Shown in pieces: positions 5,111-22,314 of a stretch of DNA of 64,000 bases. The position numbers and the translations under genes are program-made. Source of the stretch: Altererythrobacter ishigakiensis (GTDB lineage Bacteria; Pseudomonadota; Alphaproteobacteria; Sphingomonadales; Sphingomonadaceae); assembly GCF_001663155.1 (NCBI RefSeq), contig NZ_CP015963.1, positions 434,001-498,000 of the forward strand, written 5' to 3'. The notes under the pieces are model-generated. The model was not told where the DNA came from. It saw only the letters and a list, made by a program, of their open reading frames with translations, and did not search any database. Position 1 is the stretch's first letter; the number at the start of each line of letters is the position of its first letter.

Positions 5111-5122
5111 GTGCGATGCAGC

Positions 5123-6362: not shown

Positions 6363-6400
6363 GTTAGACGCATGGTGCATCTTCAGGCACTAATGCCCGA

Positions 6401-7198
6401 ATGAAAATCGCGACTTACAACATCAACGGTATCAAGGCGCGCCTTCCAAGGCTGAAGGAGTGGCTCAGCGAGACACGGCCAACGGTTGCCTGTCTGCAAG
6501 AGATCAAGAGCATGGATGAAAACTTCCCGGGCGATGAGTTCGAGGAAGCGGGTTATCACGCGATCTGGCATGGTCAGAAAAGCTTCAACGGTGTCGCCAT
6601 TCTCGTCGATAAGGAATCTGGGTTGGGCGAAACTGTTGAGGTTCAGCGCGGCTTAGGGATTGATGGCCCGAAAGAAGGCGAGGGTGAGCAAGCGCGCTAT
6701 CTCGAAGCAGATGTTGGGGGTGTGCGTATCGTTTGCATTTACCTGCCCAATGGCAATCCGCAGCCAGGACCCAAGTTCGATTACAAGATTGCATGGATGG
6801 CGAGGCTGCGGGCACGCATGGCGCAGATCTGGGCTGAAGAAGTGCCTGCCGCCGTTTTGGGTGATTTTAATGTCATTCCTGAGGATAATGACGTGTGGGC
6901 CACCAAAGCCATGGCCGACGATGCCTTGATGCAACCCCAATCGCGTGCCGCCTATTCACGCCTGTTAGCAGACGGCTGGACCGACGCAGTGCGTACACAC
7001 AATCCGCGCGGCGGCGTGTGGACATATTGGGATTACCAGGCAGGCGCATGGCAGCGCGATCACGGATTCAGGATCGATCATATTCTGCTCAGCCCTGAAT
7101 TGGCCGATCGGTTGGATGCGGTGGGCGTCGACAAGGAGCATCGCGGCCGCGAGAAGGCAAGCGACCATGCACCTGTTTGGGCGGTTTTGCGGGACTAG
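6401..7198 (+). CDS. xthA: Exodeoxyribonuclease III (AP endonuclease)
   Basis: This 265-residue member of the exonuclease-endonuclease-phosphatase family cleaves abasic sites and 3'-blocked ends during base excision repair. Visible motifs in order are IATYNINGIKARL at the N-terminus (Asn for metal and phosphate binding), CLQEIKS (metal-ligand Glu), YLPNGNP, GDFNVIPEDND (Asp/Asn catalytic pair), RIDHILLSP and SDHAPVWA at the end (catalytic Asp-His). All residues expected for activity are present. The length is normal for XthA. A strong stem-loop immediately follows the stop. Confidence 0.95.
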   Translation: MKIATYNINGIKARLPRLKEWLSETRPTVACLQEIKSMDENFPGDEFEEAGYHAIWHGQKSFNGVAILVDKESGLGETVEVQRGLGIDGPKEGEGEQARYLEADVGGVRIVCIYLPNGNPQPGPKFDYKIAWMARLRARMAQIWAEEVPAAVLGDFNVIPEDNDVWATKAMADDALMQPQSRAAYSRLLADGWTDAVRTHNPRGGVWTYWDYQAGAWQRDHGFRIDHILLSPELADRLDAVGVDKEHRGREKASDHAPVWAVLRD

Positions 7199-7207
7199 AG
7201 CGCAAAA

Positions 7208-7233
7208 GGGCCCGTCTGTTGCCAGACGAGCCC
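7208..7233. terminator. Bidirectional terminator between xth and the cell-wall hydrolase
   Basis: An 11-base stem with one mismatch closes on a four-base TTGC loop (7208-7218 pairs with 7223-7233). AAAA precedes it and a T-rich run follows, so it can serve the convergent genes on both sides. The minus-strand version has the better U tract. Confidence 0.7.
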
Positions 7234-7261
7234 CGTTGTTCAATCCGACCAGACCGATCGA

Positions 7262-7915
7262 TCAGCGATAAAAGATATGCTGGTTGATCGTTGCTCGCGC
7301 GATCATCTTGCGGTTCCAGCTCGGATTCACATATTTCGCGTGGAAATAGAGCGAGTCAGCTGCTTCGGATTCCCACAAACCTTCATGTGCAATCCGCGCG
7401 ATTGCCTTCGCCCGGTCCCAAGCTGCCGATCCCTTGTTGATGAGCGGCATTGCGCCGCCACGCACGAATGAGAATTGCGCGCGCTGATAAACAACGCCGC
7501 AATAGCTCGAAGGGAAGCGCGAACTCTCAGCGCGGTTGATCACGACCTGCGCCACCGCCAGTTGCCCGGCCAGCGGTTCACCGCGAGATTCAAAGTACAC
7601 CGCACCGGCAAGGCAGCGCATCTGCTCGGACAGTGCAAAATCAGTGTCGGTCTGCGAGACCAACTCGCGCAAATTTGAGGCATCGCCTGGCTGGGCGTCG
7701 CCCGCGTTGCTGTCGTCAGCAACCGGCTGCACCACTTCCTGCGATACGAATACAGGCTCTGATGCCGTCTTGGCATCAGCCGTAGCGGCTTGCGCTACTA
7801 CTGCTTCAGGTTCTGCAACCTGGGCAGCCGCGCCGGACATCTCAGCGCTTGCAAATGTAAGCCCCAGCGCAACCACAGTTGTGGCAGCCCCGAGCCCATG
7901 GCTCCTGCGAGTCAT
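7262..7915 (-). CDS. Cell wall hydrolase, SleB family
   Basis: The 217-residue protein has a signal peptide (residues about 1-32, ending near SGAAAQ), an Ala/Asp-rich low-complexity linker to about residue 85, and a C-terminal SleB hydrolase domain. That domain is recognised by MRCLAGAVYFESRGEPLAGQ, with the catalytic-type Glu after YF, then VVINRAESSRFP and the closing YFHAKYVNPSW. Family members cleave peptidoglycan glycan strands, and alphaproteobacterial versions are periplasmic. The gene is isolated, with 202 bases of non-coding DNA upstream that should contain its promoter. A role in growth or septation is inferred. Confidence 0.85.
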   Translation of the reverse strand: MTRRSHGLGAATTVVALGLTFASAEMSGAAAQVAEPEAVVAQAATADAKTASEPVFVSQEVVQPVADDSNAGDAQPGDASNLRELVSQTDTDFALSEQMRCLAGAVYFESRGEPLAGQLAVAQVVINRAESSRFPSSYCGVVYQRAQFSFVRGGAMPLINKGSAAWDRAKAIARIAHEGLWESEAADSLYFHAKYVNPSWNRKMIARATINQHIFYR

Positions 7916-8117
7916 AAATCCATTTAATTAGGCGGTGAGCTAGCTCCGTCGCAGGCTGGGACCGTTGCCTTTTTGGCTTATCAATAGTGGTCTAGTTACT
8001 TGGCCTGCCGGCCGCCCCCCGTCTGCGTGCTAGCGAGTTCGACCGTATTGCCGAACATGCGCCGCCTACGCGCCTGGAAGCTGGGGGGCAAATAGTCTGG
8101 TTTCCGATCAGGTCAAG

Positions 8118-8453
8118 TTAACGCGGCAGGGATGCGACGAACCGTGCACCATCAGCGATATCTACCTCCAAAATCCAGATATCGGGGTCCTGGTTCTTGC
8201 GCCTCTCAAGATAATCAAAAATTTCTTCTGGTTTTTCAGTGTTTTGCTGCTTTGCAGCAATAAACGGTCGCGAGCCGTCCAATTGTGGCATTTTTTCGAA
8301 AAGAACGGCGTTCTCACCACGATAGATAGTTAAGATCAGGATCGTTCCAGCGTCTCTTTCGCCCTTTGCGGTAACCATTGCGAAACCACCGGCAGATTCT
8401 GCCAAACGGATTATCGCGGAAACTTCGAGATGTGCTGGTAGCCGAGCGTCCAA
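8118..8453 (-). CDS. DUF1491 family protein
   Basis: The 111-residue protein begins MDARLPAHLEVSAIIRLAES and contains GGFAMVTAKGERDAGTILIL, the conserved opening of DUF1491 proteins found across alphaproteobacteria. The function is unknown. It has no signal peptide or membrane segment and is probably cytosolic. It is the last gene of a tight minus-strand group with the thioesterase (5 bases apart) and ptsN, so these are likely one transcript. The C-terminal segment IWILEVDIADGARFVASLP fits the family ending. Confidence 0.8.
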   Translation of the reverse strand: MDARLPAHLEVSAIIRLAESAGGFAMVTAKGERDAGTILILTIYRGENAVLFEKMPQLDGSRPFIAAKQQNTEKPEEIFDYLERRKNQDPDIWILEVDIADGARFVASLPR

Positions 8454-8458
8454 AGCGT

Positions 8459-8947
8459 TTACTCCGCTGGGCTCGAGTACCCTGGCAGGCTCGATAGTGC
8501 GATATGCGAACGCATGAACGTGCCAGTGCCACGGCCAATTTCATCGCCTTCTGCATCCACCAGACGAGATTCAGCAACAAACACCCGCCTCTTGCCGCTG
8601 ATCCACATACCCTCCGCTACAACTTCACCGGCGCGCACCGGTTTGGTGAAGTGCAGGTTGAATGACGTAGTCAGCAAAAATCGGTCTGTCGCACGCGTAT
8701 TCGCAGCGTAGAAAGCTGCATCATCGAGCATCTTAAAATAGATCGTGCCGTGGGCAGCGCCGGCCGCATGGAAAACACTTTCCTCGACTTGGAAGATGAT
8801 CCGCGAACGGCCGTCTCCGGTGATTTCAAGCCTTGAGTTGAATTTCTCATTGATCGGAGCTGAAGCGTAGAGACGTTCCAACGCGCGATGGTGCAGCTCA
8901 GCACCCTGGCTCGAGGCACTTGCTATGCTGCCGGCTTCACGCGGCAT
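8459..8947 (-). CDS. PaaI-type hotdog thioesterase
   Basis: This 162-residue hotdog-fold protein resembles PaaI/YbgC-like acyl-CoA thioesterases. Visible features are the helix segment HGTIYFKMLDDAAFYAANT (with Asp/Asn candidates for catalysis), LLTTSFNLHFTKPV and VAEGMWISGKRRVFVAESRL, a strand order typical of the fold. It probably hydrolyses a CoA thioester in the cytosol; the substrate is unknown. The ATG at 8947 overlaps the 3' end of ptsN by 11 bases. A second ATG at 8977 would extend the overlap to 41 bases and is less likely. Confidence 0.8.
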   Translation of the reverse strand: MPREAGSIASASSQGAELHHRALERLYASAPINEKFNSRLEITGDGRSRIIFQVEESVFHAAGAAHGTIYFKMLDDAAFYAANTRATDRFLLTTSFNLHFTKPVRAGEVVAEGMWISGKRRVFVAESRLVDAEGDEIGRGTGTFMRSHIALSSLPGYSSPAE

Positions 8948-9398
8948 CGCGTTCCAGACGGCTTGAAAGCAATGCATACATCGCCTCGGTGTCGGGCGCC
9001 TCGATCAATGCATCACGCATATTGTCGTCGCGCGCCAGCCGCGAAATTGCCGCTAGAGCGTGCAAGTGGCCAGCGCCAGCATCGTCAGGCGAAAGCAACC
9101 CGAAAATCAGGTCAACCGGCATGCCGTCCGCCGCAGCGAAATCGACCGGGCTTTCCAGTCGAAGCAGGACCGCGACCGGCCGATTGACCAATGGCGAACG
9201 CGCGTGGGGAATGGCGACTCCATTACCGAATCCGGTGGAGCCGAGCTTCTCGCGCTCCTCTAATCCATCGAGTACATCCGACGCGTCCGCATTGTAACAA
9301 TCCGCAAACAGCGCACCAACGCGTTGAAGCACTAGCTCCTTGGACGCCAGACAGTCGGTTGCGACCGCTTCTGGAAGCAATTGAAAATTCACATTCAT
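8937..9398 (-). CDS. ptsN: PTS IIA-Ntr regulatory protein
   Basis: This 153-residue EIIA domain of the nitrogen-related phosphotransferase system carries its phosphorylatable histidine at residue 65 in GNGVAIPHARSP. It regulates by protein contact and does not transport sugar. DLIFGLLSPDDAGAGHLHALA is the expected second conserved block. It follows hpf on the same strand, the classical hpf-ptsN pairing, although rpoN is not in front of hpf here. The 127-base spacer contains a hairpin discussed separately. Confidence 0.93.
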   Translation of the reverse strand: MNVNFQLLPEAVATDCLASKELVLQRVGALFADCYNADASDVLDGLEEREKLGSTGFGNGVAIPHARSPLVNRPVAVLLRLESPVDFAAADGMPVDLIFGLLSPDDAGAGHLHALAAISRLARDDNMRDALIEAPDTEAMYALLSSRLERDAA

Positions 9399-9453
9399 TT
9401 CAGGCTGTTTTCACGTTTGGTGTTCTTGTTTCAGCGACCCCAACCATCGAGAG

Positions 9454-9478
9454 CCACTCCTCAAGGAGTGGTTTTATT
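9454..9478 (+). terminator. Intrinsic terminator on the plus strand between ptsN and hpf
   Basis: A perfect 7-base stem CCACTCC/GGAGTGG (9454-9460 and 9465-9471) with a TCAA loop is followed by TTTTATT. The U tract exists only on the plus strand, while both flanking genes are on the minus strand. It therefore terminates no annotated gene. Confidence 0.6.
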
Positions 9479-9525
9479 CAGATGGTGTCCGTTTTTCTTT
9501 GTGCCTGCCGCCACGTCTTAGCGGC

Positions 9526-10116
9526 CTAGCCCCCACGCGGCTCAACCCAACCGATCGAGCCATCGGAGCGGCGATAAACCATATTATGCCGCCCAGTTCC
9601 AGCATTTTTGAAGAAAAGCGCATTCGTGTGCCGCAGGTCGAGCATCATGACAGCATCCGCGACACTTGCTTCAGGAATATCCACGCTAGTCTCAGCAATG
9701 ATCGGTGGAGCATCGCTCGAAACTTCGTCTTCGCCTTCGTCGCTGGCGAAAATCGTATATCCCGCTTCTTCGACTACATAAGCCGCATCTTCTTCGGCGC
9801 GCGCATGATCGGCTTGCTCGTGCCTGTCCTTGAGCCGCCGCTTATAGCGCCGCAATTGTTTGTCGATCTTCTCAGCCGCCGCATCGAGCGCCTGATGCGC
9901 GTCAGCAGCGTCGGCATGCGCCTTTAGGATCAATCCCTGCATGACGTGGGTGACTATATCGCAAGCGAACATGCCTGCGGGTGCCTTTCCAAAAGTGACA
10001 TGCGACGAAATCGCGCGGTCAAAATATTTGTCGACGATGCCGCCCAATCGATTATCCACATGCTCTCGCAATGCATCACCGGTTTCGATCTGATGGCCTG
10101 ACACGCGAATATCCAT
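9526..10116 (-). CDS. hpf: Long-form ribosome hibernation promoting factor
   Basis: The 196-residue protein has the N-terminal S30AE fold (MDIRVSGHQIETGDALREHV to about residue 100), which binds the decoding centre. An acidic linker follows, then the C-terminal dimerisation domain (about 135-190) ending VMMLDLRHTNALFFKN and YRRSDGSIGWVEP. This is the long type that pairs 70S ribosomes into inactive 100S dimers in stationary phase or starvation. The start at 10116 has a strong AGGAGG 10 bases upstream. The longer open frame to 10356 lies inside dnaQ and is rejected. Confidence 0.95.
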   Translation of the reverse strand: MDIRVSGHQIETGDALREHVDNRLGGIVDKYFDRAISSHVTFGKAPAGMFACDIVTHVMQGLILKAHADAADAHQALDAAAEKIDKQLRRYKRRLKDRHEQADHARAEEDAAYVVEEAGYTIFASDEGEDEVSSDAPPIIAETSVDIPEASVADAVMMLDLRHTNALFFKNAGTGRHNMVYRRSDGSIGWVEPRGG

Positions 10117-10165
10117 AAGCGCGATTTCCTCCTGCTTGTTTCTGAAGGCATGTGCCTTCAAAGCC

Positions 10166-10858
10166 TTAACTCGACCAGACCGGATTCTCGATCCGTTCGA
10201 GGAATTCCTTGTGGCGCGCAATCTCCGCTGCGCTGGCCGCGTGGGGGCGTGGTTCACGTCGTGGGCCATTCGGCGCTGTCGGACGTGATCGGCCACCCTC
10301 GGCCTCACCATCACTTTGAAGATCGGCTGCCAGCTCCAACCCGATCTGCCGCCCACCCATCAGCTCGACATAAACCTGTGCAAGCAATTCGGCGTCGAGA
10401 AGCGCGCCGTGCTTTACGCGGTGGCTGCGATCCACACCGTAGCGAGAACACAGGGCATCGAGCGAAACCTTCGCTCCCGGATGCCGTTTCCGAGCTATCG
10501 CCACGGTATCAACCATGCGGCTCATCTCGATCGGCTTGCGTCCAATCAACTCGAGTTCACTGTTGAGAAATCCGAAGTCAAAGCCGGCGTTATGGGCGAC
10601 CAGCGGCGCGTCTCCCAGAAATTCCAAAAGCTCGTCAGCCTGCGACGCAAACAGCGGCTTTGTCTCAAGGAATGAAATTGAAAGCCCATGTACTGCCTCT
10701 GCAGCAGAGGGCATGTCGCGTTCAGGATTGTAGTAAGCGTGATAAGTCGCACCGGTCGCAACCCGATTGACCATTTCGACACATCCAATTTCAACCATCC
10801 GATCTCCAGACTTGGGGTCCAGGCCGGTGGTCTCAGTGTCAAAAACGATTTCCCGCAT
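10166..10858 (-). CDS. dnaQ: DNA polymerase III epsilon subunit (3'-5' proofreading exonuclease)
   Basis: The 230-residue DEDD exonuclease has Exo I in IVFDTETTGLDP (Asp and Glu ligands), Exo II in LVAHNAGFDFGFLN and Exo III in HGALLDAELLAQVY (His-x4-Asp, DEDDh type). The C-terminal tail after residue 180 is Pro/Arg-rich and matches the region that binds the alpha subunit. It proofreads the replicative polymerase. It is the last gene of the ppsR-maf-aroE-coaE-dnaQ block, a conserved arrangement beside hemE in alphaproteobacteria. Confidence 0.95.
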   Translation of the reverse strand: MREIVFDTETTGLDPKSGDRMVEIGCVEMVNRVATGATYHAYYNPERDMPSAAEAVHGLSISFLETKPLFASQADELLEFLGDAPLVAHNAGFDFGFLNSELELIGRKPIEMSRMVDTVAIARKRHPGAKVSLDALCSRYGVDRSHRVKHGALLDAELLAQVYVELMGGRQIGLELAADLQSDGEAEGGRSRPTAPNGPRREPRPHAASAAEIARHKEFLERIENPVWSS

Positions 10859-10922
10859 TGGATATACTATCGGACTGAGTCAGCGATTTGGCAAGCGATT
10901 CTGGATCGTGGCCAAAGCTATC

Positions 10923-11516
10923 TTACGCAGCACCAAGCTTTGCGATCAATTCGGCGACTGCTGCCTCGGTCTCTCTCAGCGATACGCCTGTATCGATGAC
11001 AAAGTCCGCGGCTTCCCGTTTTTCTGCATCCGGAGTCTGTAGCGAGAGGATATGGGCAAATTTCTCCGGCGTCATGCCTTCGCGGGCCAGAACCCGCTGG
11101 CGCTGTACCTCCGCTGGCGCAGATACGACTAAGACTGTGTCAACGTTCTCGTGGCCGCCCTTTTCGAACAACAACGGTATATCGAAAACAACCATTGGTG
11201 CGCCGCCGTGCTCGATCAGGAATTCAACGCGCTTGGCTGCAACTGCCGGATGCACGATGGCCTCCAATCTTGCGAGCGCTTCGGGATCACCGAAAACCCG
11301 GGCTCCAAGCGCATCTCGCCTGACACCTTCGTCACTGGTTGAGCCAGGGAACGCTGCTTCGATCGATTCGATCAATTCGCCACGCGGACCCTGCATCTTG
11401 CGAACTTCTGCATCGGCATCAAAAACAGGGACGCCGTGCCGTTCAAACATCTCGGCAACGGTAGACTTGCCCATACCAATCGAGCCGGTGAGACCGATAA
11501 TGCGTGGGTGCGTCAT
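10923..11516 (-). CDS. coaE: Dephospho-CoA kinase
   Basis: This 197-residue P-loop kinase phosphorylates the 3'-hydroxyl of dephospho-CoA in the last step of coenzyme A synthesis. The P-loop is GLTGSIGMGKST at the N-terminus. Other family blocks are PVFDADAEVRKM, FDIPLLFEKGGH and AREGMTPEKFAHILSLQ. The ATG overlaps the aroE stop by 4 bases (ATGA type), indicating translational coupling. The length is standard for CoaE. Confidence 0.95.
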   Translation of the reverse strand: MTHPRIIGLTGSIGMGKSTVAEMFERHGVPVFDADAEVRKMQGPRGELIESIEAAFPGSTSDEGVRRDALGARVFGDPEALARLEAIVHPAVAAKRVEFLIEHGGAPMVVFDIPLLFEKGGHENVDTVLVVSAPAEVQRQRVLAREGMTPEKFAHILSLQTPDAEKREAADFVIDTGVSLRETEAAVAELIAKLGAA

Positions 11517-12367
11517 TTGGTCAGCAGCTCCCGCAGGTCGGCATCGTGTTCACGCGGGGCGGGCAATCCGAAGAATTTTTCGAACGCGACTGCTGCCTGA
11601 CCAATCAACATGTTGAGCCCGTCAATGGTGCGGTGACCGGCGGCGCGCGCATTCTTGAGGAACACGGTCTCCAGCGGATCGGTGACAATATCATAGGCAA
11701 TGGCGCCTGGTGGTGCATGGCTCCAGTCAAACTTGAGGTACGGCTGGCCGCGCATGCCCAACGGGGAGGCGTTGACCACGAGATCGAAGCAACCCTCGCG
11801 GTCGTCAAAAGCAAAATTGGTCGTTTCCGCAAAGTGATCAAGATGCACGGCATGATGTTCACCGACAGGTGCAAGCTCATCAAGGATCGCGCGCGCTTTA
11901 TCGGGATCGCGTCCGGCCAGTACCAACGTGAAACCATGCTCCGCTAGCGCCGTGATGATCGCACGCGCCGCGCCGCCAGTCCCCAACACACGCGCCATGC
12001 GGAAATAATGATCCTTGGCGAGCTCACTCTTCAGCGGCTCAAGAAATCCGGATGCGTCCGTGTTGTACCCAATCAACTTGTGATCTTCGCGTACCAACGT
12101 GTTTACGGCGCCGATTTTCTTTGCCACCGGATCCATGTGGTCGATCAGTGCAACAACGGCTTGCTTGTGCGGCATGGTGATATTGCAGCCGCGCCAGCCG
12201 GTCTCATCGCGGTGGGTCGCAATGTAATCGGACAGCGCGCCACGCACCACATGCTCCGCGCGATAGCTGGGTTCACACCCCAACTTCGTCAGCCAGAAAT
12301 TGTGGATCGCGGGCGATTTTGATTGAGCAATCGGATCTCCGATCACTTGTGCATAGGGGATGCTCAT
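11513..12367 (-). CDS. aroE: Shikimate dehydrogenase
   Basis: The 284-residue enzyme reduces 3-dehydroshikimate with NADPH in aromatic amino acid synthesis. It has the substrate-binding N-terminal motif DPIAQSKSPAIHNFW, the catalytic Lys in GCNITMPHKQAVV and Asp in YNTDASGFLEPL. The Rossmann glycine loop is VLGTGGAARAII, and LVVNASPLGMRGQP lies near the end. It is joined to maf and coaE by 4-base ATGA overlaps on both sides. Confidence 0.95.
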   Translation of the reverse strand: MSIPYAQVIGDPIAQSKSPAIHNFWLTKLGCEPSYRAEHVVRGALSDYIATHRDETGWRGCNITMPHKQAVVALIDHMDPVAKKIGAVNTLVREDHKLIGYNTDASGFLEPLKSELAKDHYFRMARVLGTGGAARAIITALAEHGFTLVLAGRDPDKARAILDELAPVGEHHAVHLDHFAETTNFAFDDREGCFDLVVNASPLGMRGQPYLKFDWSHAPPGAIAYDIVTDPLETVFLKNARAAGHRTIDGLNMLIGQAAVAFEKFFGLPAPREHDADLRELLTK

Positions 12368-12948
12368 GATGGTAATTCCCCCAGTTCGCGCAAGGCGCCA
12401 AGGACGCCTAGCAACGGCATACCCAACACAGTGAACTGATCACCTTCGATCCGTTCGAAGAGCTGCGGGCCCATCGCTTCGATCCTGAACGCGCCCGCAC
12501 AATAGCCAATCTCTGGCCATTCTGCGTCGAGGTAAAACTCGATAAATGCTTCGCTGAAATCGCGCACATGAAGCTGCGCCAAGGACTGCGCGCTCCATTC
12601 GCATGTATCATCACGGACAATGGCCGCGCCGCTATGCAGCTCCATGGTTTTGCCGGAGAAGAAGCGCAAATGTTCTACAGCCTGTTCACGGGTTTCGGGT
12701 TTGTCGAAACGTTTCCCTTCACACACCACCAGGCTATCGCTGCCCAGAACCAGACGGCCGCGATATTCAGACGCGACAACCTCTGCTTTAGCGACACTGA
12801 GCGCCTCTGCGATCTCGCCAGGCGTGCACCCCTCGATCCCGGCTTCGACTGCACGCTCGTCAAGTTGCGCCGGGACAGCTTCGTATTCAACGCCAGCCGC
12901 ATCAAGCATAGTGCGGCGCGACGCGCTTTTGGAAGCAAGGATGATCAT
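12364..12948 (-). CDS. maf: Maf family nucleoside triphosphate pyrophosphatase
   Basis: This 194-residue protein is a Maf/YceF-like pyrophosphatase that hydrolyses non-canonical or methylated nucleotides. Diagnostic segments are LASKSASRRTMLDAAGV (substrate loop), LVLGSDSLVVCEG (metal-binding Asp), the Lys/Arg-rich PETREQAVEHLRF region and IGYCAGAFRIEAMGPQL. The YhdE versus YceF subtype, and so the exact substrate, is not certain. It sits between ppsR and aroE with 4-base overlaps to each. Confidence 0.9.
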   Translation of the reverse strand: MIILASKSASRRTMLDAAGVEYEAVPAQLDERAVEAGIEGCTPGEIAEALSVAKAEVVASEYRGRLVLGSDSLVVCEGKRFDKPETREQAVEHLRFFSGKTMELHSGAAIVRDDTCEWSAQSLAQLHVRDFSEAFIEFYLDAEWPEIGYCAGAFRIEAMGPQLFERIEGDQFTVLGMPLLGVLGALRELGELPS

Positions 12949-13784
12949 ATCGCACCAGTGCCTGAAGATTCAGGGGTCTTGGCCTTGTCCTTGCGCTCCT
13001 GGAAGAAACGGATCACCGCAGCTGCCGTCTCTTCGATCGAGCGACGAGTAACATCGATTACAGGCCATCCATTGTCAGCGAACATGCGGCGGGCGAACTG
13101 AACCTCTTCGCGCACTCTCTCATCATCGACATATGATGTTTCCGTGCCTTCATTGAGGGACAGCAGCCGGTTGCGGCGGACTTGCACCAGCCGTTCGGGC
13201 GCGGTCGTCAACCCAACAACCAATGGTTTGCGCAAACCGAACAGCACATCCGGTGGTGGCGACTCCATAACCAGAGGAATATTGGCGACCTTGTACCCGC
13301 GATTGGCGAGGTAGATGCTGGTAGGCGTTTTTGAACTGCGCGATACGCCGGCAAGAACAATGTCCGCCTCTTCCCAATCCTCCCATCCGATCCCATCGTC
13401 ATGAGCTATGGTATAGTGGATCGCATCAACACGGCTGAAATAGGCTTCATCCATCAAATGCTGACGGCCGGGTTTGCCATGCGCTTCTTCGCCAAGCTGC
13501 GCCTCAAGCGCAGCAGTAACTGAGTCGAGAACGGGCACCGCAGGCAATCCGATCTGGCGGCAATGTTCTTCCAGTCTTGCGCGTGTCTCTGCATTAACCA
13601 GTGTAAAAAGAACCAGACCGGGGCTATCGGCAAGCGCAGGAACGATGCGGTCCAAGTGCTGGCGAGAACGCACCATCGGCCAGAAATGGCGCACAACCTC
13701 TGGATTGTCGAATTGTGCAAGCGCAGCTTTCGCGATCATCTCCAGCGTCTCGCCGGTTGAATCAGAGACAAGATGAAGATGCAT
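12945..13784 (-). CDS. ppsR: Pyruvate,phosphate dikinase/PEP synthase regulatory protein (DUF299, RP001 type)
   Basis: The 279-residue bifunctional kinase/pyrophosphorylase regulates PEP synthase or pyruvate,phosphate dikinase by threonine phosphorylation. The N-terminus MHLHLVSDSTGETLEMIAK and the P-loop-like GVSRSSKTPTSIYLANRGYK near residue 155 are the family signatures. The target dikinase is outside the window. It is the first gene of the leftward operon and is divergent from hemE across the candidate replication origin. Its family includes Rickettsia RP001, which flanks the Caulobacter and Rickettsia origins in the same way. Confidence 0.93.
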   Translation of the reverse strand: MHLHLVSDSTGETLEMIAKAALAQFDNPEVVRHFWPMVRSRQHLDRIVPALADSPGLVLFTLVNAETRARLEEHCRQIGLPAVPVLDSVTAALEAQLGEEAHGKPGRQHLMDEAYFSRVDAIHYTIAHDDGIGWEDWEEADIVLAGVSRSSKTPTSIYLANRGYKVANIPLVMESPPPDVLFGLRKPLVVGLTTAPERLVQVRRNRLLSLNEGTETSYVDDERVREEVQFARRMFADNGWPVIDVTRRSIEETAAAVIRFFQERKDKAKTPESSGTGAI

Positions 13785-13957
13785 GAGCGGCGTTCCGGAT
13801 TAAGTTATCCCTGTGGAAGAGGGTTGGCATAAACCACGGGAGAAGTCTGAGGACAAGTTCGTGGAGCCAATCCATGCCCGCTGTCCGGGATTCCACCAAG
13901 GGCTGTGTGAACAGGCGCTCAAGCTTTCCCCAGCCTGTTGATAGCAGGCAAAAGTTT

Positions 13958-13984
13958 GACTCGACTCCACAAGAGTCGCGAGTC
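13958..13984. repeat. Cluster of four GANTC (CcrM) sites in inverted arrangement
   Basis: GACTC occurs at 13958-13962 and 13963-13967. Its inverse, GAGTC, occurs at 13973-13977 and 13980-13984. The block forms an imperfect inverted repeat in the middle of the candidate origin. GANTC is the target of the alphaproteobacterial cell-cycle methyltransferase CcrM. Confidence 0.75.
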
Positions 13985-14067
13985 GCTGAGCATCAGCACC
14001 TTTGCATTGCGGGAAAAAAGCGGGCAGGAACCACTTGTTCCCGAAATCCACAGGGCCAACAGACTCC

Positions 14068-14100
14068 ATAATCCTATATATAAATATTATTATATTGATT
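14068..14100. other. AT-rich tract, possible DNA unwinding element
   Basis: Only 3 of 33 bases are G or C in this stretch, in an otherwise GC-rich region. It lies immediately upstream of hemE and 16 bases after the AAATCCACA DnaA-box-like site. It could serve as the melting element of oriC, as the hemE promoter region, or both. Confidence 0.6.
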
Positions 14101-14112
14101 GGACTTAGACCT

Positions 14113-15132
14113 ATGCCTGGTTTGCTACTTGATTCTCTGCGCGGTCACAAACCGGCAAGGCCACCTATGTGGCTTATGCGTCAGGCGGGGCGATACTTGC
14201 CAGAATATCGCGAACTGCGGGCGGAAAAGGGCGGTTTTCTGGACCTTGTTTATGACAGCGATGCCGCAGCCGAGATTACGATACAGCCTTTGCGACGGTT
14301 CGGCTTTGATGGCGCAATTCTTTTCTCCGATATCCTGATTGTCCCGCATGCGATGGGACAAGGTCTGGAGTTTCTCGCCGGTGAGGGACCCAAGTTGTCG
14401 CCACCATTGCTTGAAGCCAATCTGACCGAGTTTGCACCAAAGCCGGAACGTTTCGATCCAGTCTATGAGACAGTGCGTCTGTGTCGTCAGCAGATTGGCG
14501 AGAATGTAACCATGCTGGGGTTTGCCGGCAGCCCATGGACTGTTGCTACATACATGGTGAATGGCGAAGGCAGCCGCGATCAGCATGCAACGCGCGAACT
14601 CGCTTACACTGATCCAGAGCGTCTTCAGTCCATCATTGATGCGATTGTTGAAACATCGATTACCTATCTGCGTGGTCAAATCGATGCCGGCGCGGAAGCG
14701 GTGCAGCTGTTTGACAGTTGGGCAGGCAGCCTCGCGCCGGACCAGTTCGAGCGCTGGGTGATTGCTCCGAACGCGGCAATAACCGCTGCGATCAAACAAT
14801 CGCACCCTGACACACCGGTTATCGGTTTCCCCAAGGGTGCGGGCGCGAAGCTGGCCCAGTATGCGAGAGAAACCGGTGTCGATGCGATCGGTCTTGATGA
14901 GACAGTGGACCCCATATGGGCTAACAAGGAATTACCGCAGGGTATGCCTGTACAGGGCAATCTCGACCCTCTGATGCTGATGGCAGGCGGCAAAGCAATG
15001 AGCGACCGGATAGAATTCATAATCGAGGCCTTTGCTGACCGCCCGCATATCTTCAACTTGGGGCATGGTATCGGTCAATTCACGCCGATCGAACATGTCG
15101 AGCAGCTAGTTGCGGCGGTGCGCGGCGAATGA
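14113..15132 (+). CDS. hemE: Uroporphyrinogen decarboxylase
   Basis: The 339-residue enzyme removes four carboxyl groups from uroporphyrinogen III to give coproporphyrinogen III in heme and chlorophyll synthesis. The signature MWLMRQAGRYLPEYRELR is at residues 20-37, and GFAGSPWTVATYMVNGEGS is the second conserved block. The active-site Asp is in DGAILFSDILI. The ATG at 14113 gives the normal family length. The longer frame from 14002 reads through the AT-rich origin tract and is rejected. hemJ follows 52 bases downstream on the same strand. Confidence 0.96.
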   Translation: MPGLLLDSLRGHKPARPPMWLMRQAGRYLPEYRELRAEKGGFLDLVYDSDAAAEITIQPLRRFGFDGAILFSDILIVPHAMGQGLEFLAGEGPKLSPPLLEANLTEFAPKPERFDPVYETVRLCRQQIGENVTMLGFAGSPWTVATYMVNGEGSRDQHATRELAYTDPERLQSIIDAIVETSITYLRGQIDAGAEAVQLFDSWAGSLAPDQFERWVIAPNAAITAAIKQSHPDTPVIGFPKGAGAKLAQYARETGVDAIGLDETVDPIWANKELPQGMPVQGNLDPLMLMAGGKAMSDRIEFIIEAFADRPHIFNLGHGIGQFTPIEHVEQLVAAVRGE

Positions 15133-15184
15133 ACGGTTGGGCAAGGGGTGACGCAGCGATGACGCATACCTACATTGTTCAGCG

Positions 15185-15643
15185 ATGCAGGATATTCTCG
15201 CTGTGACCTATCTTTGGCTGAAGGCTGGCCACATCATTTTTGTGGTCTTCTGGATGGCTGGCTTGTTCATGCTGCCGCGTCAGATGATCTATGTGCACCC
15301 CTCCGCTTCCGGATCCGAGGAAGAGGCCCTATGGGTCAAGCGAATGGGGCTGTTGCGCAAGATTATCCTGACTCCCAGCCTGATCGTGGTTTGGGTTCTG
15401 GGCTTGCTGATGAGTATCCAGTTGGGCCTGCTTGATGGAGCGCCGGGCTTAGGCTGGCTGCACGCCAAGATATTCGTTGTCGTGCTTCTGACGGGCTTTC
15501 ACGGATATCTGGTGGCCCAGAGCAAGAGGATTGCGAAGGGAGAGCGGCCGTTGAGCGAGAAACAGCTTCGCATGCTGGGCGAGCTTCCAGGTCTCCTGCT
15601 TGTCATCATCGTAATTCTGGTCGTTGTAGTCAGGGCTTTCTGA
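15185..15643 (+). CDS. hemJ: Protoporphyrinogen IX oxidase, HemJ type
   Basis: This 152-residue integral membrane protein belongs to the HemJ/UPF0093 family and converts protoporphyrinogen IX to protoporphyrin IX. About four hydrophobic helices are visible, starting with YLWLKAGHIIFVVFWMAGLF, whose His is conserved. GLGWLHAKIFVVVLLTGFHG contains further conserved His residues and a Lys. The hemE-hemJ-rho order is typical of alphaproteobacteria and supports the call. Confidence 0.93.
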   Translation: MQDILAVTYLWLKAGHIIFVVFWMAGLFMLPRQMIYVHPSASGSEEEALWVKRMGLLRKIILTPSLIVVWVLGLLMSIQLGLLDGAPGLGWLHAKIFVVVLLTGFHGYLVAQSKRIAKGERPLSEKQLRMLGELPGLLLVIIVILVVVVRAF

Positions 15644-15685
15644 ACGACATGAACTGATTGCCTGATGACGTTATCGCAATTCCGA

Positions 15686-15712
15686 TTGACGATAGCGGCG
15701 CGCAAATATAAT
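15686..15712 (+). promoter_or_regulatory. Promoter of rho
   Basis: A -35 box TTGACG (15686-15691) and a perfect -10 box TATAAT (15707-15712) are separated by 15 bases, slightly short. Transcription would start near 15719, giving rho a leader of about 130 bases. Confidence 0.65.
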
Positions 15713-15784
15713 TCAGATAGATCAAACCGGCATCAAGGCATCGCATGTAAGCGAAGCCAAGGTCTGCTTTCTCCAAGCCCAAAA

Positions 15785-15805
15785 ACCTCGCCTCTTTGAC
15801 GAGGT
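15785..15805 (+). promoter_or_regulatory. Hairpin in the rho leader
   Basis: ACCTCG (15785-15790) and CGAGGT (15800-15805) form a 6-base stem with a 9-base loop within the untranslated leader of rho. Rho genes in other bacteria are autoregulated by premature termination in the leader. This hairpin could contribute, but there is no U tract and the link is inferred. Confidence 0.35.
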
Positions 15806-15848
15806 ACTGACCTGTCGGCCAACATTTTCCAATACGGATACAATCAAA

Positions 15849-17114
15849 ATGCATCTTAAAGACTTGAAAGCAAAAACCCCGGCCGAACTGGTTGCCATGG
15901 CAGAAGAGCTGGATGTCGAAGCGGCTGGCACAATGCGTCGGCAGGATCTGCTGTTCAGCATCCTTCGCGAGCTTGCCGAAGACGAAGAATACGAAGAAAA
16001 GATCATGGGTATCGGCACGATTGAAGTGCTCCAGGATGGCTTTGGCTTCCTGCGTTCGCCCGAAGCGAACTATCTCGCCGGGCCGGATGATATCTATGTT
16101 TCTCCAAACCAGATCCGCAAATGGGGTCTGCGCACCGGCGATACTGTTGAAGGTGAAATTCGTGCACCCGGAGAAGGAGAGCGTTATTTTGCGCTGACCA
16201 GCCTGAGCCAGGTGAACTTTGAGAACCCTGAAGCGGTGCGGATGCGCACCAATTTCGATAACCTTACACCGCTTTACCCTGATCAAAAGCTGACCCTCGA
16301 TCCTGCCGATCCAACCGTGAAGGACAAGTCAGCCCGGGTGATCGACATTATCGCACCTCAGGGCAAGGGGCAGCGCGCATTGATCGTTGCGCCACCGCGC
16401 ACAGGTAAAACCGTGCTGTTGCAGAATATCGCCAAAGCGATCACTGACAATCACCCTGAGGTTTTCCTGCTAGTTCTGTTGGTCGACGAACGTCCAGAAG
16501 AAGTAACCGACATGCAACGCAGCGTGAAAGGTGAGGTTATCTCTTCGACCTTTGACGAGCCTGCGAACCGGCACGTTCAAGTCGCAGAGATGGTGATTGA
16601 GAAGGCAAAACGCCTGGTAGAACACAAGCACGACGTGGTGATCCTGCTTGACTCGATCACGCGTCTGGGACGTGCCTACAACACAGTCGTGCCAAGCTCG
16701 GGCAAGGTGTTGACCGGTGGTGTCGATGCCAACGCATTGCAGCGCCCGAAGCGTTTCTTTGGTGCGGCGCGTAATATTGAGGAGGGCGGATCGCTCTCAA
16801 TCATCGCTACTGCGCTGATCGATACCGGCAGCCGTATGGACGAAGTGATCTTCGAGGAGTTCAAGGGTACCGGTAACTCGGAGATCGTGCTGGATCGCAA
16901 GGTTGCGGACAAGCGAATCTTCCCGGCGCTTGATGTTGGCAAGTCTGGCACGCGCAAGGAAGAGCTGTTGGTTGATAAGGACAATCTGTCGAAGATGTGG
17001 GTGCTGCGCCGCATCCTGATGCAGATGGGCACTGTCGATGCGATGGAGTTCCTGCTCGACAAGATGAAGGATTCGAAGACCAACGAGGACTTCTTCGAAA
17101 CCATGAACCAGTAA
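15849..17114 (+). CDS. rho: Transcription termination factor Rho
   Basis: The 421-residue hexameric RNA helicase terminates transcription. The Rho N-terminal helical domain begins [20 protein letters not shown]. The cold-shock-like RNA-binding domain contains the RNP motif [12 protein letters not shown], and [15 protein letters not shown] is the Walker A region. The Q-loop and R-loop regions follow ([32 protein letters not shown]). The length matches alphaproteobacterial Rho. A long leader precedes it. Confidence 0.98.
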
Positions 17115-17174
17115 GGGAAATCACCGAAGCGAGAATTCGGTTTGATTTCATGGATTTGTGGTCTTTTCCCAAAC

Positions 17175-17576
17175 ATGGAGAAAAGACCACTCATTCAGAT
17201 CGTCTATACCAGCCTTGTTTCGGACCGGGTTGATGCAGGCGAATTCTTTGCGATGGTTCAGGGCGCGTCACGCAATTTTGCATCCATGGGCATCACAGGC
17301 AGGCTGATCTTCGCTGACGGCAGGTTTTTTCAGGCGCTTGAGGGACCACCACTGAATTTCGACCCATGGATCAGAGATGTCGAGCGCGATCCGCGGCATC
17401 ACTCTATGGCAATCGTTTTAAGGCGCTCCATTGAGAAACGGCAGTTTGAAGGCTGGCGCATGCGGCGTCTTGGTTTTTGTGACGGAGCACAGGCCATTGC
17501 TGCGTTCGAAGCGATACTTGCGCGCAGGCATGATGCGGGCTCGATAATGAGCCTCCTCGAAAACCGACTTGGCTGA
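17175..17576 (+). CDS. BLUF-domain blue-light sensor protein (flavin-binding residue altered)
   Basis: The 133-residue protein is a stand-alone BLUF domain, which binds FAD and senses blue light through a hydrogen-bond switch. The photocycle Tyr11 (IVYTSLV) and Gln53 (FFQALEGP) are conserved, as are ITGRLIF and the RDPRHHSMAIVL, KRQFEGWRM blocks. The Asn that normally lies six residues before the Thr of (I/L)TG is Phe35 here in ungapped alignment; an Asn sits one position earlier (Asn34). Light activity is therefore uncertain. The start at 17175 was chosen because it begins just before the first beta strand. The gene follows rho by 60 bases. Short BLUF proteins act through partner proteins, and none is evident here. 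Confidence 0.88.
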   Translation: MEKRPLIQIVYTSLVSDRVDAGEFFAMVQGASRNFASMGITGRLIFADGRFFQALEGPPLNFDPWIRDVERDPRHHSMAIVLRRSIEKRQFEGWRMRRLGFCDGAQAIAAFEAILARRHDAGSIMSLLENRLG

Positions 17577-17593
17577 GAACGGATGTTTTCCGG

Positions 17594-18001
17594 TTAGGAC
17601 GAGGATCCTTTTTCCAGCTGAGCAGCCATCATTTCCCAGACTTTGTTTACTGCTTTGAGCGGGCGAACCATTACCTTGAAGTCGGTGATCAAGCCCTCAT
17701 CGTCAAAGGTGATCATGTCGATACCGTTGACGTGAATCCCGTCCATGACGGTCTGGAACTCTAGCACCGCGGTGTTTCCATCAACCACTTCGCGCAAGTA
17801 TTGGAAGCTGTCATTGCCTAAGGTCTTTCCCGCAGCAGACAGATAGGCGACAACGATAGGGCGGCCCTTTTGCGGGGTGTGGACGACTGGGGAGTGAAAC
17901 ACCGCATCTTCGCGCATTATTGAAGCAAGAGCGGCGGGGTCACTTCCACCTTCGATTACCTCATGCCAGCGTGTGAGCCCGACGGCTGCGGGGCTGCTCA
18001 C
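17594..18001 (-). CDS. SnoaL/NTF2-like fold protein
   Basis: The 135-residue protein has the cone-shaped NTF2/SnoaL fold signature. A helical N-terminus leads into LASIMREDAVFHSPVVHTPQ, followed by curved-sheet strands VLEFQTVMDGIHVNGIDMIT and LITDFKVMVRPLKAVN. Such proteins are small isomerases, hydrolases or ligand-binding folds; the activity is not predictable here. It starts with GTG at 18001, overlapping the dienelactone hydrolase stop by 4 bases (GTGA), so the two are translationally coupled. Confidence 0.8.
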   Translation of the reverse strand: MSSPAAVGLTRWHEVIEGGSDPAALASIMREDAVFHSPVVHTPQKGRPIVVAYLSAAGKTLGNDSFQYLREVVDGNTAVLEFQTVMDGIHVNGIDMITFDDEGLITDFKVMVRPLKAVNKVWEMMAAQLEKGSSS

Positions 18002-18696
18002 GCCAGATGCTCCGCGAAGAATTCTCTTGTTCGTCCGTCCGCAAGCTGCGCGCCAGCTTCATCACGGCGATTGCCGCTTTCGGTCGCGAATCCATGATCG
18101 AGTCCTTCGTAGTCATATAGAGTCACGCGGGGATGATCGTCTAATCCGGCATGCATCGCAGCTTGCGCTTCCGGACCAACAAAATGATCTGCGGTGGGAA
18201 CGTGCAGCAAGAGCGGGTTCGCGATACCGTGTTTCTCATCCAGCATCTGGTCGATCATCACACCATAATAGCCGACCGATGCATCGATGTCTGTTCGTGC
18301 TGCGGTCATATAGGCAAGCTTGCCGCCTAGGCAGTAACCGACACAGCCAACCTTTGCGACGCCGGCTTCCTGGCGGATCCAATGGATTGTTGTCTCGATA
18401 TCCTTTACGCCGTCATCGGGATTATATTTGCCAAAATATTCAAGTGCTTCATTGAATTCAGCCTCGACATCTGGGTCCAGTTCAATTCCCGGCTTCATGC
18501 GGAAGAACAGGTCTGGTGCCACCGCGAGATACCCTTCGGCGGCCCAGCTTTCGCACTTGTTGCGGATGCCAGGGTTCACACCGAAAATTTCCTGAATAAC
18601 GATTATGGCGGCCTTGGGCGCGCCTTCAGGCCGGGCGACGTAAGCGCTGAAATTGGCGTCGCCATCAAGGGTGGAAATGCTAACCATCTCGGACAT
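17998..18696 (-). CDS. Dienelactone hydrolase family protein
   Basis: This 232-residue alpha/beta hydrolase has the Cys-Asp-His triad of dienelactone hydrolases: Cys122 in VGYCLGGKLAY, Asp170 in PTADHFVG and His201 in YEGLDHGF. The oxyanion-side segment IIVIQEIFGVNPGIRNKCES is also typical. The substrate may be a lactone or another ester; chlorocatechol degradation genes are absent nearby. It lacks a signal peptide and should be cytosolic. It is the first gene of a two-gene operon with the NTF2-like protein. Confidence 0.9.
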   Translation of the reverse strand: MSEMVSISTLDGDANFSAYVARPEGAPKAAIIVIQEIFGVNPGIRNKCESWAAEGYLAVAPDLFFRMKPGIELDPDVEAEFNEALEYFGKYNPDDGVKDIETTIHWIRQEAGVAKVGCVGYCLGGKLAYMTAARTDIDASVGYYGVMIDQMLDEKHGIANPLLLHVPTADHFVGPEAQAAMHAGLDDHPRVTLYDYEGLDHGFATESGNRRDEAGAQLADGRTREFFAEHLA

Positions 18697-18807
18697 TTGG
18701 GGGCTGCTCCTTTGATTCTTCGTGAAAGCGGCTTATCGCTTGGCAGGTAGAATTGCCAAACCCAAATGTAACAGGGTTATAGCGCGTTGTAGCACGGAGA
18801 TGATGTC

Positions 18808-19071
18808 ATGAAGGTCAATATTGAGATCGACTGTACGCCGGAAGAGGCGAGGGCCTTCATGGGTTTGCCCGACGTGTCTGAAGCCAACAAAGTCTATGTG
18901 GACACCATGACCAAAGCGATGAAGGGTGTTTCAAGCCCCGAACAGTTGCAGGAGTTTGCCACACAACTGGCCCCGATGGGGCAAGCTGGTTTGAAAATGT
19001 TTCACAACTTTATCGAATCTGGGCTGACAGGTGGATTCGGAAAGTCATCAACCCGAAAGTCGGGCGACTGA
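18808..19071 (+). CDS. DUF6489-type small conserved protein
   Basis: The 87-residue protein starts MKVNIEIDCTPEEARAFMGLPD, with a Met/Gln-rich helical middle (VYVDTMTKAMKGVSSPEQLQ) and a Gly-rich C-terminus. I recognise it as a short conserved sphingomonad/alphaproteobacterial family placed just before mnmE, probably DUF6489; the function is unknown. A GGAGA ribosome-binding site precedes the ATG. mnmE starts 22 bases after the stop, so co-transcription is likely. Confidence 0.75.
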   Translation: MKVNIEIDCTPEEARAFMGLPDVSEANKVYVDTMTKAMKGVSSPEQLQEFATQLAPMGQAGLKMFHNFIESGLTGGFGKSSTRKSGD

Positions 19072-19093
19072 AGCCACTGGAAACCGTTCGCTT

Positions 19094-20371
19094 ATGAATG
19101 ACACTGTCTTCGCTTTGTCGAGTGGGGCACCCCCCGCCGCGATCGGTGTGATCCGCATCAGTGGCCCTCAAGCCGGGGCTGTGTTGCGCCAACTCATTCA
19201 GCGCGAGATCGAGCCTCGCAGGGCAAGCTTGGCTAAATTGCGCGGTCTGGATGGCGCCTTGCTAGATGAGGCCCTGGTGCTTTGGTTTCCGGGTCTGGAG
19301 ACAGCGACTGGAGAGGATCTGGCCGAGCTCCATTGCCATGGCGGCCGAGCTGTGATCGCAGCGGTAGAGGCTGAGCTCGCAGGCATTGATGGTCTTCGCA
19401 AGGCGGAGCCGGGTGAGTTCACTCGCCGCGCCTTTACCAATGGCCGGATCGATCTGGCCGAAGCTGAGGGTCTTGCGGACCTCCTGAACGCTGAGACAGA
19501 GCTTCAACGCAGCGCCGCTATGGCTATGGCGGGAGGGGGCTTTTCGCGCCAAGTTGAGTGTTGGCGAGACGCACTGTTGCGGCTGGCTGCAGAGGTTGAA
19601 GCGGCGCTTGATTTTTCGGACGAGGATGATGTCGCCGGTCTTTCCGATGACTTTGGTGCGCGTTTGAGTGACCTGTCTGGCGAATTGGCCGATTGGCTTG
19701 CGCGCCCGAGGTCGGAGCGGCTGGGTGGAGGCTATCGAGTGGTGCTGGCGGGTCCACCGAATGCAGGAAAGTCCACTCTTTTCAACGCTTTGATTGAAAG
19801 TGAGGCGGCGATAACGTCGCCGATTGCGGGGACAACCCGAGATGTAATTGAGCGTTCGGTATCAATTGCCGGTATCCCGTTCACTTTCATCGATACCGCA
19901 GGTCTCCACGAGGGTGTTGGCGATGAAATTGAGGCTATCGGCATCGACCGCGCGCGAATGCAGCTGGAAAGTGCCGATCTGGTTCTTTGGCTGGGTGCTG
20001 AACACGAAGGGCCGGAAGGTGTTTGGGAGATTGAAGCACAGGTTGACCATAGCGCGCATTTGGTTAAATCTGATCCGAAGTTTCGTGTTTCTGCGCGAAC
20101 GGGCGAGGGACTTTCAGAGTTGAAGCGCGCCTTGGTTCAATCTGCGCGGGCCAGCCTTCCAAAACCGGGAGAGGCGGCGCTCAACACCCGACAGCATGCT
20201 TTGTTGAATGAGGCTATGGGGGGTCTGAGCGATGCAGGCTCATCTGCCGATCCCTTGATCATTGCAGAATGTTTGCGCCGGGCGAGGGTTGCGTTTGATC
20301 GCTTGATTGGGCGGGCAACGACCGAAGATATGCTCGATGCGCTGTTCGGGCGCTTCTGTATCGGCAAATAG
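19094..20371 (+). CDS. mnmE: tRNA uridine-5-carboxymethylaminomethyl GTPase
   Basis: The 425-residue GTPase works with MnmG to modify the wobble uridine (U34) of tRNAs. The N-terminal folate-binding domain (FALSSGAPPAAIGVIRISG) leads into the helical domain. The G domain has the P-loop GPPNAGKSTLFNALI and switch regions AGTTRDVIE and DTAGLHEG. The protein ends in CIGK, the CxGK motif that carries the catalytic cysteine. The start at 19094 excludes a longer frame overlapping the upstream gene. mnmG follows after a parS-containing gap. Confidence 0.96.
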   Translation: MNDTVFALSSGAPPAAIGVIRISGPQAGAVLRQLIQREIEPRRASLAKLRGLDGALLDEALVLWFPGLETATGEDLAELHCHGGRAVIAAVEAELAGIDGLRKAEPGEFTRRAFTNGRIDLAEAEGLADLLNAETELQRSAAMAMAGGGFSRQVECWRDALLRLAAEVEAALDFSDEDDVAGLSDDFGARLSDLSGELADWLARPRSERLGGGYRVVLAGPPNAGKSTLFNALIESEAAITSPIAGTTRDVIERSVSIAGIPFTFIDTAGLHEGVGDEIEAIGIDRARMQLESADLVLWLGAEHEGPEGVWEIEAQVDHSAHLVKSDPKFRVSARTGEGLSELKRALVQSARASLPKPGEAALNTRQHALLNEAMGGLSDAGSSADPLIIAECLRRARVAFDRLIGRATTEDMLDALFGRFCIGK

Positions 20372-20388
20372 CCAAGAATGTGGGGCAG

Positions 20389-20404
20389 TGTTCCACGTGA
20401 AACA
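20389..20404. other. parS centromere site 1
   Basis: TGTTCCACGTGAAACA differs at one position from the bacterial parS consensus TGTTTCACGTGAAACA. It lies in the mnmE-mnmG gap, about 6.3 kb from the candidate oriC and 3.3 kb upstream of parB. Confidence 0.93.
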
Positions 20405-20460
20405 TGCCGGGAAAAGAAAGTCCTTTGACCCGCGGGTGTGCTGCGAGTATCGGGCGGCGC

Positions 20461-22314
20461 ATGCTAGACTTTGATGTCCTCGTTGTCGGCGGTGGTCACG
20501 CCGGTGTCGAGGCGGCCTGCGCAGCCGCCCGCATGGGCGCGCGTGCTGGCTTGGTAAGCTTCGATCTCGAAGCCATCGGGGCAATGAGCTGTAACCCTGC
20601 GATTGGCGGTCTGGGCAAAGGGCACCTCGTACGCGAAGTCGATGCACTTGATGGGGTTATTGGCCGGGCTGCTGATGCCGGCGCGATACATTACCGCATG
20701 CTCAACCGGTCAAAGGGTAGTGCGGTATGGGGTCCGCGGGTTCAGGCGGACAGGGTTTTGTTCAAGGCCGCCGTTCAGAAGGTGGTGACGGCGCAAGCAG
20801 GCCTGACTCTGATCGAAGGTGAGGCGGCGGCATTAAAGATGCGCGGCGAACGGGTTGCTGGTCTGGAGCTGGGCGACGGAACTGTGCTTGAAGCGCCCAC
20901 GGTTATACTTTGCACCGGTACGTTTCTGGGTGGAACGCTGTTTCGCGGCGAAGAGCGGTTTGAGGGCGGGCGGATCGGCGAGAGTTCAGCCCGTAAGCTC
21001 GCCGAGCAATTGCGCGGTGCAAACCTACCCATGGCACGGCTGAAGACGGGCACGCCTCCGCGTCTTGATGGTCGCACTATCGATTGGGCGAGTTTGGAAG
21101 AGCAGCCCTCTGATACGGATCATTGGACGATGTCGCCACTAACCGAGCGACGTATCAATCCGCAGGTCTTTTGTGCAATTACTCGCACGACCGAGGCTGC
21201 GCATGAGGCAATCCGGGAAAATCTTCATCGTTCTCCGATGTTTACCGGTGCAATCGGGGCGGCGGGGCCGCGATACTGCCCCTCGATTGAGGACAAGATC
21301 CATCGTTTCGGGGATCGTGATGGGCACCAGGTTTTTCTTGAGCCGGAGGGCTTAAGGACGCACCTTGTCTATCCCAACGGGATCAGCACATCATTACCGG
21401 TTGACGTTCAACTCACGATGCTCCGCGCCATGCCTGGGCTTGAGCGCGTTGTGATGGAAGTGCCCGGCTACGCGGTTGAATATGATCACATCGACCCGCG
21501 TGCATTGACAGCGGATCTGCAGTTGCGCGTCATTCCCGGACTTTATTGTGCAGGCCAGATCAATGGTACGACCGGGTATGAAGAGGCTGCAGCGCAAGGG
21601 CTTGTTGCGGGCCTTAATGCGGCTTCAGCTGTGTTAGACAAGGAGCCACCAAAGCTCGATCGTGCGAACAGTTATATCGCGGTGATGGTCGACGATCTGA
21701 CGCTACAGGGTGTAAGTGAGCCCTATCGTATGCTCACCGCGCGTGCCGAATACCGCCTGCGGCTTAGGGCGAACAATGCAACGACTCGCCTGACCCCGCT
21801 GGGCATGAAGGCGGGTAGTGTCGACAACGAACGGGCGGAATGGTATGTTTCACGTGAAACACGCCGCGCTGAACTCGCACCGCTGTTTGAGGTGGAGCTG
21901 AGCGCGAAAGACCTGAACGACGCGGGGCTTAATATCCGGCGTGACGGCGGCATGAAGCCCGTGGCCGAGTGGCTGAGGCACGATGGTGTGGGCCTTGACG
22001 ATCTGGCCCCTTGGCTAGACGCGGATCTGGACCCCAGGGACGCTCTGGTTTCTGAAATGGCGGAGGATGCCGCCTACGCGCCCTATCTGGCGCGTCAGGA
22101 CGCGGAGCTGCGGGATCTGCGCGCGAGCGAAGCTTTGGAGCTTGGCGCGAACTTCCCTTTCGGTGATGTCCCGGGACTTTCCAACGAGATGGTGGAGCGC
22201 CTTCAGGCGGCGCGACCGGCAAGCCTGGCTGCTGCGGGCCGGGTTCCTGGCATCACGCCAGCTGCACTCTCTGCTTTGCTTGTCCACGCACGCCGAAGGC
22301 AGCAGGCCGCGTGA
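20461..22314 (+). CDS. mnmG: tRNA uridine-5-carboxymethylaminomethyl modification enzyme MnmG (GidA)
   Basis: This 617-residue FAD protein is the partner of MnmE in wobble-uridine modification. It has the dinucleotide fold [14 protein letters not shown], the signature [19 protein letters not shown], a [13 protein letters not shown] block and the C-terminal helical domain. ATG 20461 was chosen because it begins [12 protein letters not shown]. An upstream ATG at 20404 overlaps the parS site and adds 19 unconserved residues. A perfect parS is embedded in its coding sequence, at residues reading VSRET. Confidence 0.96.
21846..21861. other. parS centromere site 2 (perfect), inside mnmG
   Basis: TGTTTCACGTGAAACA is an exact 16-base palindrome and a perfect parS. 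It is read as part of the MnmG peptide YVSRETR, so the coding sequence accommodates the centromere site. Confidence 0.96.

Follow-up and report, generated by a model that had tools for sequence, protein, structure and literature searches.

Origins beside hemE and the gap between ppsR and hemE

The mapped replication origin of Caulobacter crescentus (Cori) lies in the gap between hemE and a DUF299 gene (PMC1914354) and is described, in the available parts of the reports on it, as containing an AT-rich region of about 40 b, weak DnaA sites and five CtrA sites, with parS within about 8 kb (PMC1914354, PMC4468827). hemE is also a boundary gene of the predicted origins of Rickettsia and Wolbachia, for which zero to seven CtrA sites are reported; R. 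prowazekii additionally has the COG1806 gene, and the other boundary gene of the Wolbachia origin encodes a CBS-domain protein, unlike the locus studied here (PMC1914354, available part). An oriC beside hemE has further been predicted in Sphingopyxis granuli TFA and in most Sphingomonadaceae in DoriC (PMC4741004), and in Novosphingobium PP1Y the origin was predicted near hemE and also near a dnaA gene (PMC4059872), as stated in the accessible portions of these papers. A literature search on the replication origin of Sphingomonas together with marker frequency found nothing.

A stretch of Altererythrobacter ishigakiensis DNA of 64,000 nucleotides (the window, positions 1-64000) was analysed, and the features located in it are collected in Table 1. 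Judged from sequence comparison, the gap between ppsR and hemE is very probably the chromosomal oriC, of the hemE type, of this alphaproteobacterium of the Erythrobacter/Sphingomonas group. Because a hemE-side oriC had already been predicted for most of the family, an origin at this position is well supported but ordinary. The locus resembles the Sphingopyxis granuli TFA prediction, as far as the available text of that paper describes it, in the placement of the gap next to hemE, the conserved order of the genes, DnaA-like boxes (likened by description, not base by base) and a putative unwinding element; it differs in belonging to another organism and in that parS, dif and skew were also tested here (PMC4741004). 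With Cori it shares the hemE/DUF299 position, an AT-rich region, candidate weak DnaA sites, nearby parS and, encoded in the genome, homologues of GcrA and CcrM (best solved match CcrMI, 6pbd, E 6.4e-153). A difference from Cori is the distance of 448 kb separating dnaA from the gap.

Table 1. Positions of the candidate origin, its sequence elements and the neighbouring partition genes and sites, numbered within the window.
Feature	Position	Strand	Remarks
ppsR / DUF299 gene, left boundary	12945-13784	-	NF003742, 325 bits (cut-off 225)
Candidate oriC gap, ppsR-hemE	13785-14112		328 b; putative
DnaA-like box A, CTGTGGAAG	13811-13819	-	weak; TGTGGA in 24 of 30 gaps
Block GGCATAAACCACGGGA-N10-GACAAG	13826-13857	+	lineage-specific in the genomes searched
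Six GANTC (CcrM-type) sites	13889-14066		starts 13889, 13958, 13963, 13973, 13980, 14062
DnaA-like inverted pair, box B	13925-13943		exact TATCNACAG on - at 13935-13943
DnaA-like box C, AATCCACAG	14045-14053	+	one mismatch to TATCNACAG; adjoins AT tract; in conserved stretch to 14062
AT-rich tract, putative unwinding element	14068-14100		3 G/C in 33 b
hemE, right boundary	14113-15132	+	TIGR01464, 390 bits (cut-off 303)
parS	20389-20404		1 mismatch
parS	21846-21861		0 mismatches
parS	22511-22526		1 mismatch
parS	22876-22891		1 mismatch
ParA-like gene	22960-23736	+	ParA/RepA/MinD-type models, all below cut-offs
parB	23733-24713	+	TIGR00180, 183 bits (cut-off 58)

The limits of the gap and, by profile matches, the identities of both flanking genes, as proposed in a sequence-only reading of this DNA, were upheld, and with them the proposed correspondence to the gene pair at the Caulobacter and Rickettsia origins (PMC1914354, available part). 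The ppsR product scored above the cut-off of NF003742 and fell short of the one set for the narrower PpsR equivalog model. In the ORF list of the window a longer hemE ORF is possible from a TTG at 14002; the start was taken as 14113 because the proteins of relatives align from that position. The flip in coding direction at the gap was likewise found, ppsR being on the - strand with Maf-, AroE- and DnaQ-like genes and hemE on the + strand with HemJ-like, Rho, MnmE, MnmG, RsmG, ParA-like and ParB genes, where the Maf, HemJ and ParA names denote profile matches below curated cut-offs. The gap sequence is single-copy, its sole match in the genome (G000) being itself at G000:C1:447785-448112.

For comparison, 59 family genomes (own included) were searched, hemE was found in 58 and the 30 best-scoring loci of these 58 (own included) were fetched. 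The divergent ppsR-hemE pair was present in 30/30 loci, with gaps of 302-412 b.

Sequence elements of the gap

No shuffle of the gap out of 100 matched the composition of the 33-b AT tract picked out by the sequence-only reading, and the tract was the only 33-mer with such low G/C in the 724,900 b sampled, where the other match consisted of masked N. The reading had also counted six GANTC sites in about 180 b. These span 178 b; for the whole gap 0.61 sites would be expected from the sampled density (1.85 per kb) and 1.3 from shuffles, none of which (0/200) reached six; across the 30 family gaps 155 sites were counted against 43 expected from shuffles, related sequences being treated as independent. 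The cluster is the densest 178-b window in the 725 kb sampled, tied with L049:7508. This second cluster extends over L049:7508-7700 (G000:C1, around 377.5 kb) and lies partly within a predicted ORF.

Several DnaA-box-like 9-mers with two mismatches had been noted, and eight were counted, compared with a shuffle mean, at two or fewer mismatches, of 1.8 per gap (54.0 over 30 gaps). Taken alone, these 9-mers would be weak evidence, because none comes closer to TTATNCACA than two mismatches. At one or fewer mismatches 59 sites were found in 29 of the 30 family gaps against 5.0 in shuffles (relatives counted as independent), the own gap being the sole one of the 30 to have none; such a site is also missing from 10 of the 93 block-bearing gaps described below. 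AT tract and DnaA-like boxes recur in the same gap of the relatives. From ppsR to hemE, the conserved order comprises TGTGGA (box A), GGCATAAACCACGGGA, GACAAG ten bases on, the box B pair, a stretch rich in GANTC, another resembling GGGA-AA-TCGGGCAGG, box C, which passes into CCACAGGGCCAACAG, and finally the AT tract.

Unlike Cori with its five CtrA sites, as given in the available parts of PMC1914354 and PMC4468827, no exact TTAA-N7-TTAA was found in the own gap, the 30 family gaps or the 93 block-bearing gaps. At one mismatch the own gap had 0 sites and 3 of the 30 gaps together had six, compared with 2.9 (maximum 8) in shuffles. The IHF motif WATCAN5WTR occurred once in the own gap and in 5/30 gaps (1.4 gaps in shuffles), and WATCAN4TTR in 0 positions of the own gap and in 3/30 gaps (1.2 in shuffles). 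The DnaA-trio origin motif is a run of at least three 5'-[CT]TA triplets by an AT tract. An origin of this type was rejected, as a run of at least three triplets was present in 0/30 gaps and the own run was two (shuffle mean 1.4).

Since the Caulobacter origin encodes the small RNA CcnA, according to the part of PMC8959179 available, a gap that is the origin and in addition encodes a CcnA-like RNA was considered; this is unlikely, given that no Rfam match above the gathering score was obtained for 12000-24000 or for the whole window and that three folded stretches were no more stable than shuffles (z -1.11, -0.98 and 0.13). One terminator-like site was located at 14025-14043 on the - strand (shuffle mean 0.6). 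No tRNA gene was found in the whole window.

The block beside ppsR was not explained by any of the DnaA, CtrA, IHF and GANTC motifs tried. Its conservation was judged solely on the 30 gaps selected through hemE, because 93 of the 123 inputs to the conservation track had been chosen for the block itself; in 21 of these 30 gaps its first 14 bases were present within two mismatches. A search of genome_contigs with the pattern GGCATAAACCACGGGA-N10-GACAAG returned 106 stretches, and the 80 titles listed among them came mostly from Erythrobacter, Qipengyuania and allied genera or from unclassified bins, with a single bin titled Gammaproteobacteria. The block was placed between ppsR and hemE in 93 stretches, which formed the set used for the extra CtrA and DnaA-box counts, beside ppsR only in 10 and beside hemE only in three; in 13/13 of these one-gene stretches the stored DNA runs out no more than 350 b from the block in the direction of the absent gene. 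Among 289 genomes of the class the block was found at 0-1 mismatch in three, all from the own family (three of its four members there), and one further genome matched at three mismatches, no more than chance would give, as the pattern reversed as a control hit 14 times in 12 genomes. On these searches the block is lineage-specific. A literature search on its core letters returned nothing related, and we know of no binder for it.

From these elements, their conservation and the chromosome-scale signals given below, we infer how protein binding, unwinding and control might proceed at the gap. ATP-DnaA would bind a small number of weak boxes spaced out across the gap and would extend from box C into the AT tract, which would open and allow two replisomes to start in opposite directions. 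CcrM-methylated GANTC sites would report whether the origin had just been copied, and ParB bound to parS 6-9 kb away would move new origins apart. It is conceivable, and put forward here only tentatively, that origins of the Erythrobacter/Sphingomonas type are a distinct regulatory variant in which the Caulobacter gene neighbourhood has been kept, CtrA sites were dropped or never present, and DnaA is gated by clustered GANTC methylation (CcrM/GcrA) together with a lineage-specific protein on the block beside ppsR; if so, the protein on the block would be a regulator of the origin not described before. The conserved block and the GANTC clusters without CtrA sites make the control of the sphingomonad origin testable.

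Placement of the origin on the chromosome

The genome is a single contig of 2,673,978 b with one dnaA match, which belongs to a frame starting at base 1. As in many bacteria, the origin could lie beside dnaA, where the record begins, rather than in the hemE gap. However, numbering from the dnaA start codon says in itself nothing about the origin, and skew fit, parS cluster and dif position all favour hemE over dnaA, leaving an origin beside dnaA highly improbable.

The GC skew was fitted with two breakpoints on a sample of 27% of the genome. The first fit gave an origin at 445-455 kb and a terminus at 1.645 Mb, with a worse fit at dnaA (SSE 545 vs 430). As the window had been cut at 13950 in this fit, possibly favouring the candidate, uniform 7-kb bins were also used, which returned the same place, with the best origin at 450 kb (hemE at 448 kb) and an R2 of 0.302, compared with 0.204 at dnaA and at most 0.209 in any of 500 permutations. 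In bootstrap samples 58.6% of origins fell within 50 kb of 448 kb and 1.8% within 50 kb of dnaA, with a wide 5-95% interval from 210 kb to 2.41 Mb. The skew is thus weak (R2 0.30) and by itself places the origin loosely. Within 414001-512000 the cumulative minimum was at window position 13599, 186 b from the left edge of the gap; for the full genome it had been predicted near 14 kb of the window. Gene-strand bias was rejected as an independent test of the origin, being too weak to discriminate (leading-strand ORFs 301/544 with a hemE origin and 288/544 with a dnaA origin).

Four parS sites at 0-1 mismatch, the only near-perfect ones of the genome, are clustered at 454.4-456.9 kb, 6.3-8.8 kb from the gap, and parAB extends up to 10.6 kb from it, in keeping with the 6-10 kb first proposed for parABS. 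Five other listed matches have three mismatches each and are scattered over the genome, and near dnaA no parS match is better than three mismatches. A dif-like site with a TTATGTTAAAT half was located between ORFs at G000:C1:1714123-1714144; seen from hemE it divides the chromosome 47:53, and seen from dnaA, off-centre, 36:64. In the dnaA surroundings (1-14000 and 2659901-2673900, the tract scan ending 78 b before the contig end) there was no 33-mer with three or fewer G/C and no excess of DnaA boxes (0.29 per kb at one or fewer mismatches, compared with 0.22 in the window). In Sphingomonadales dnaA is reported, in the available part of the source, not to be conserved near the origin (PMC8116508).

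The assignment of oriC to the hemE gap by the sequence-only reading is thus supported by the skew fit on 27% of the genome, the clustering of parS and the position of dif, and the gap is likely to be the true zero point of the chromosome. Since the record counts from dnaA, 448 kb off, any analysis of replichores, gene dosage or skew made in its coordinates would be displaced.

A further reading, that the origin lies nearby but elsewhere, for instance nearer mnmG-parAB, and that the gap is mainly a methylation-controlled divergent ppsR/hemE promoter, draws on skew and parS locating the origin only to tens of kb, on GANTC sites also marking promoters (PMC8116508, available part) and on the equally dense cluster elsewhere, but is very unlikely in view of the AT tract, unique in the sample and recurring with DnaA-like boxes in relatives, of a sigma-70-type promoter scan that found none, and of the mapped Caulobacter origin in the same gene gap (PMC1914354, available part).

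Agreement among relatives

For parS, dnaA and dif the comparison covered 16 of the 59 genomes (own included), picked as the least fragmented or nearest. parS at one or fewer mismatches was found in 13 of the 16 and in none of the other three, and all 28 sites were 4.5-23 kb from hemE. In the eight single-contig genomes among these 13, dnaA is 251-889 kb from hemE; in three more a single contig carries both genes at a separation of 227-477 kb, contig 1 of G057 also bears both, far from each other when measured along it, and G002 has them on separate contigs. A single dif-like site was detected in each of 15/16 genomes. Chromosome arms were computed for the nine of the 16 with a single contig and a dif match, relatives' lengths being rounded, and the shorter hemE-dif arm was 0.411-0.485 of the chromosome, compared with 0.106-0.486 for the shorter dnaA-dif arm. 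dif was more nearly opposite hemE than dnaA in eight of the nine; the exception, which speaks for an origin beside dnaA, was G033 (0.486 for dnaA vs 0.411 for hemE). parS, dif and the hemE gap therefore largely agree across the relatives examined, and their agreement provides a simple rule for placing the origin.

Two observations were made in passing. In G057, sixteen extra weak DnaA-domain matches were found in equal-score sets beside one strong match; our guess is that these are perhaps transposon-borne ATPases. At L063, G052:C1:447992-448989 and G007:C1:1262055-1263055 the match to hemE was either interrupted by an in-frame stop or split in two, reflecting sequencing error or decay.
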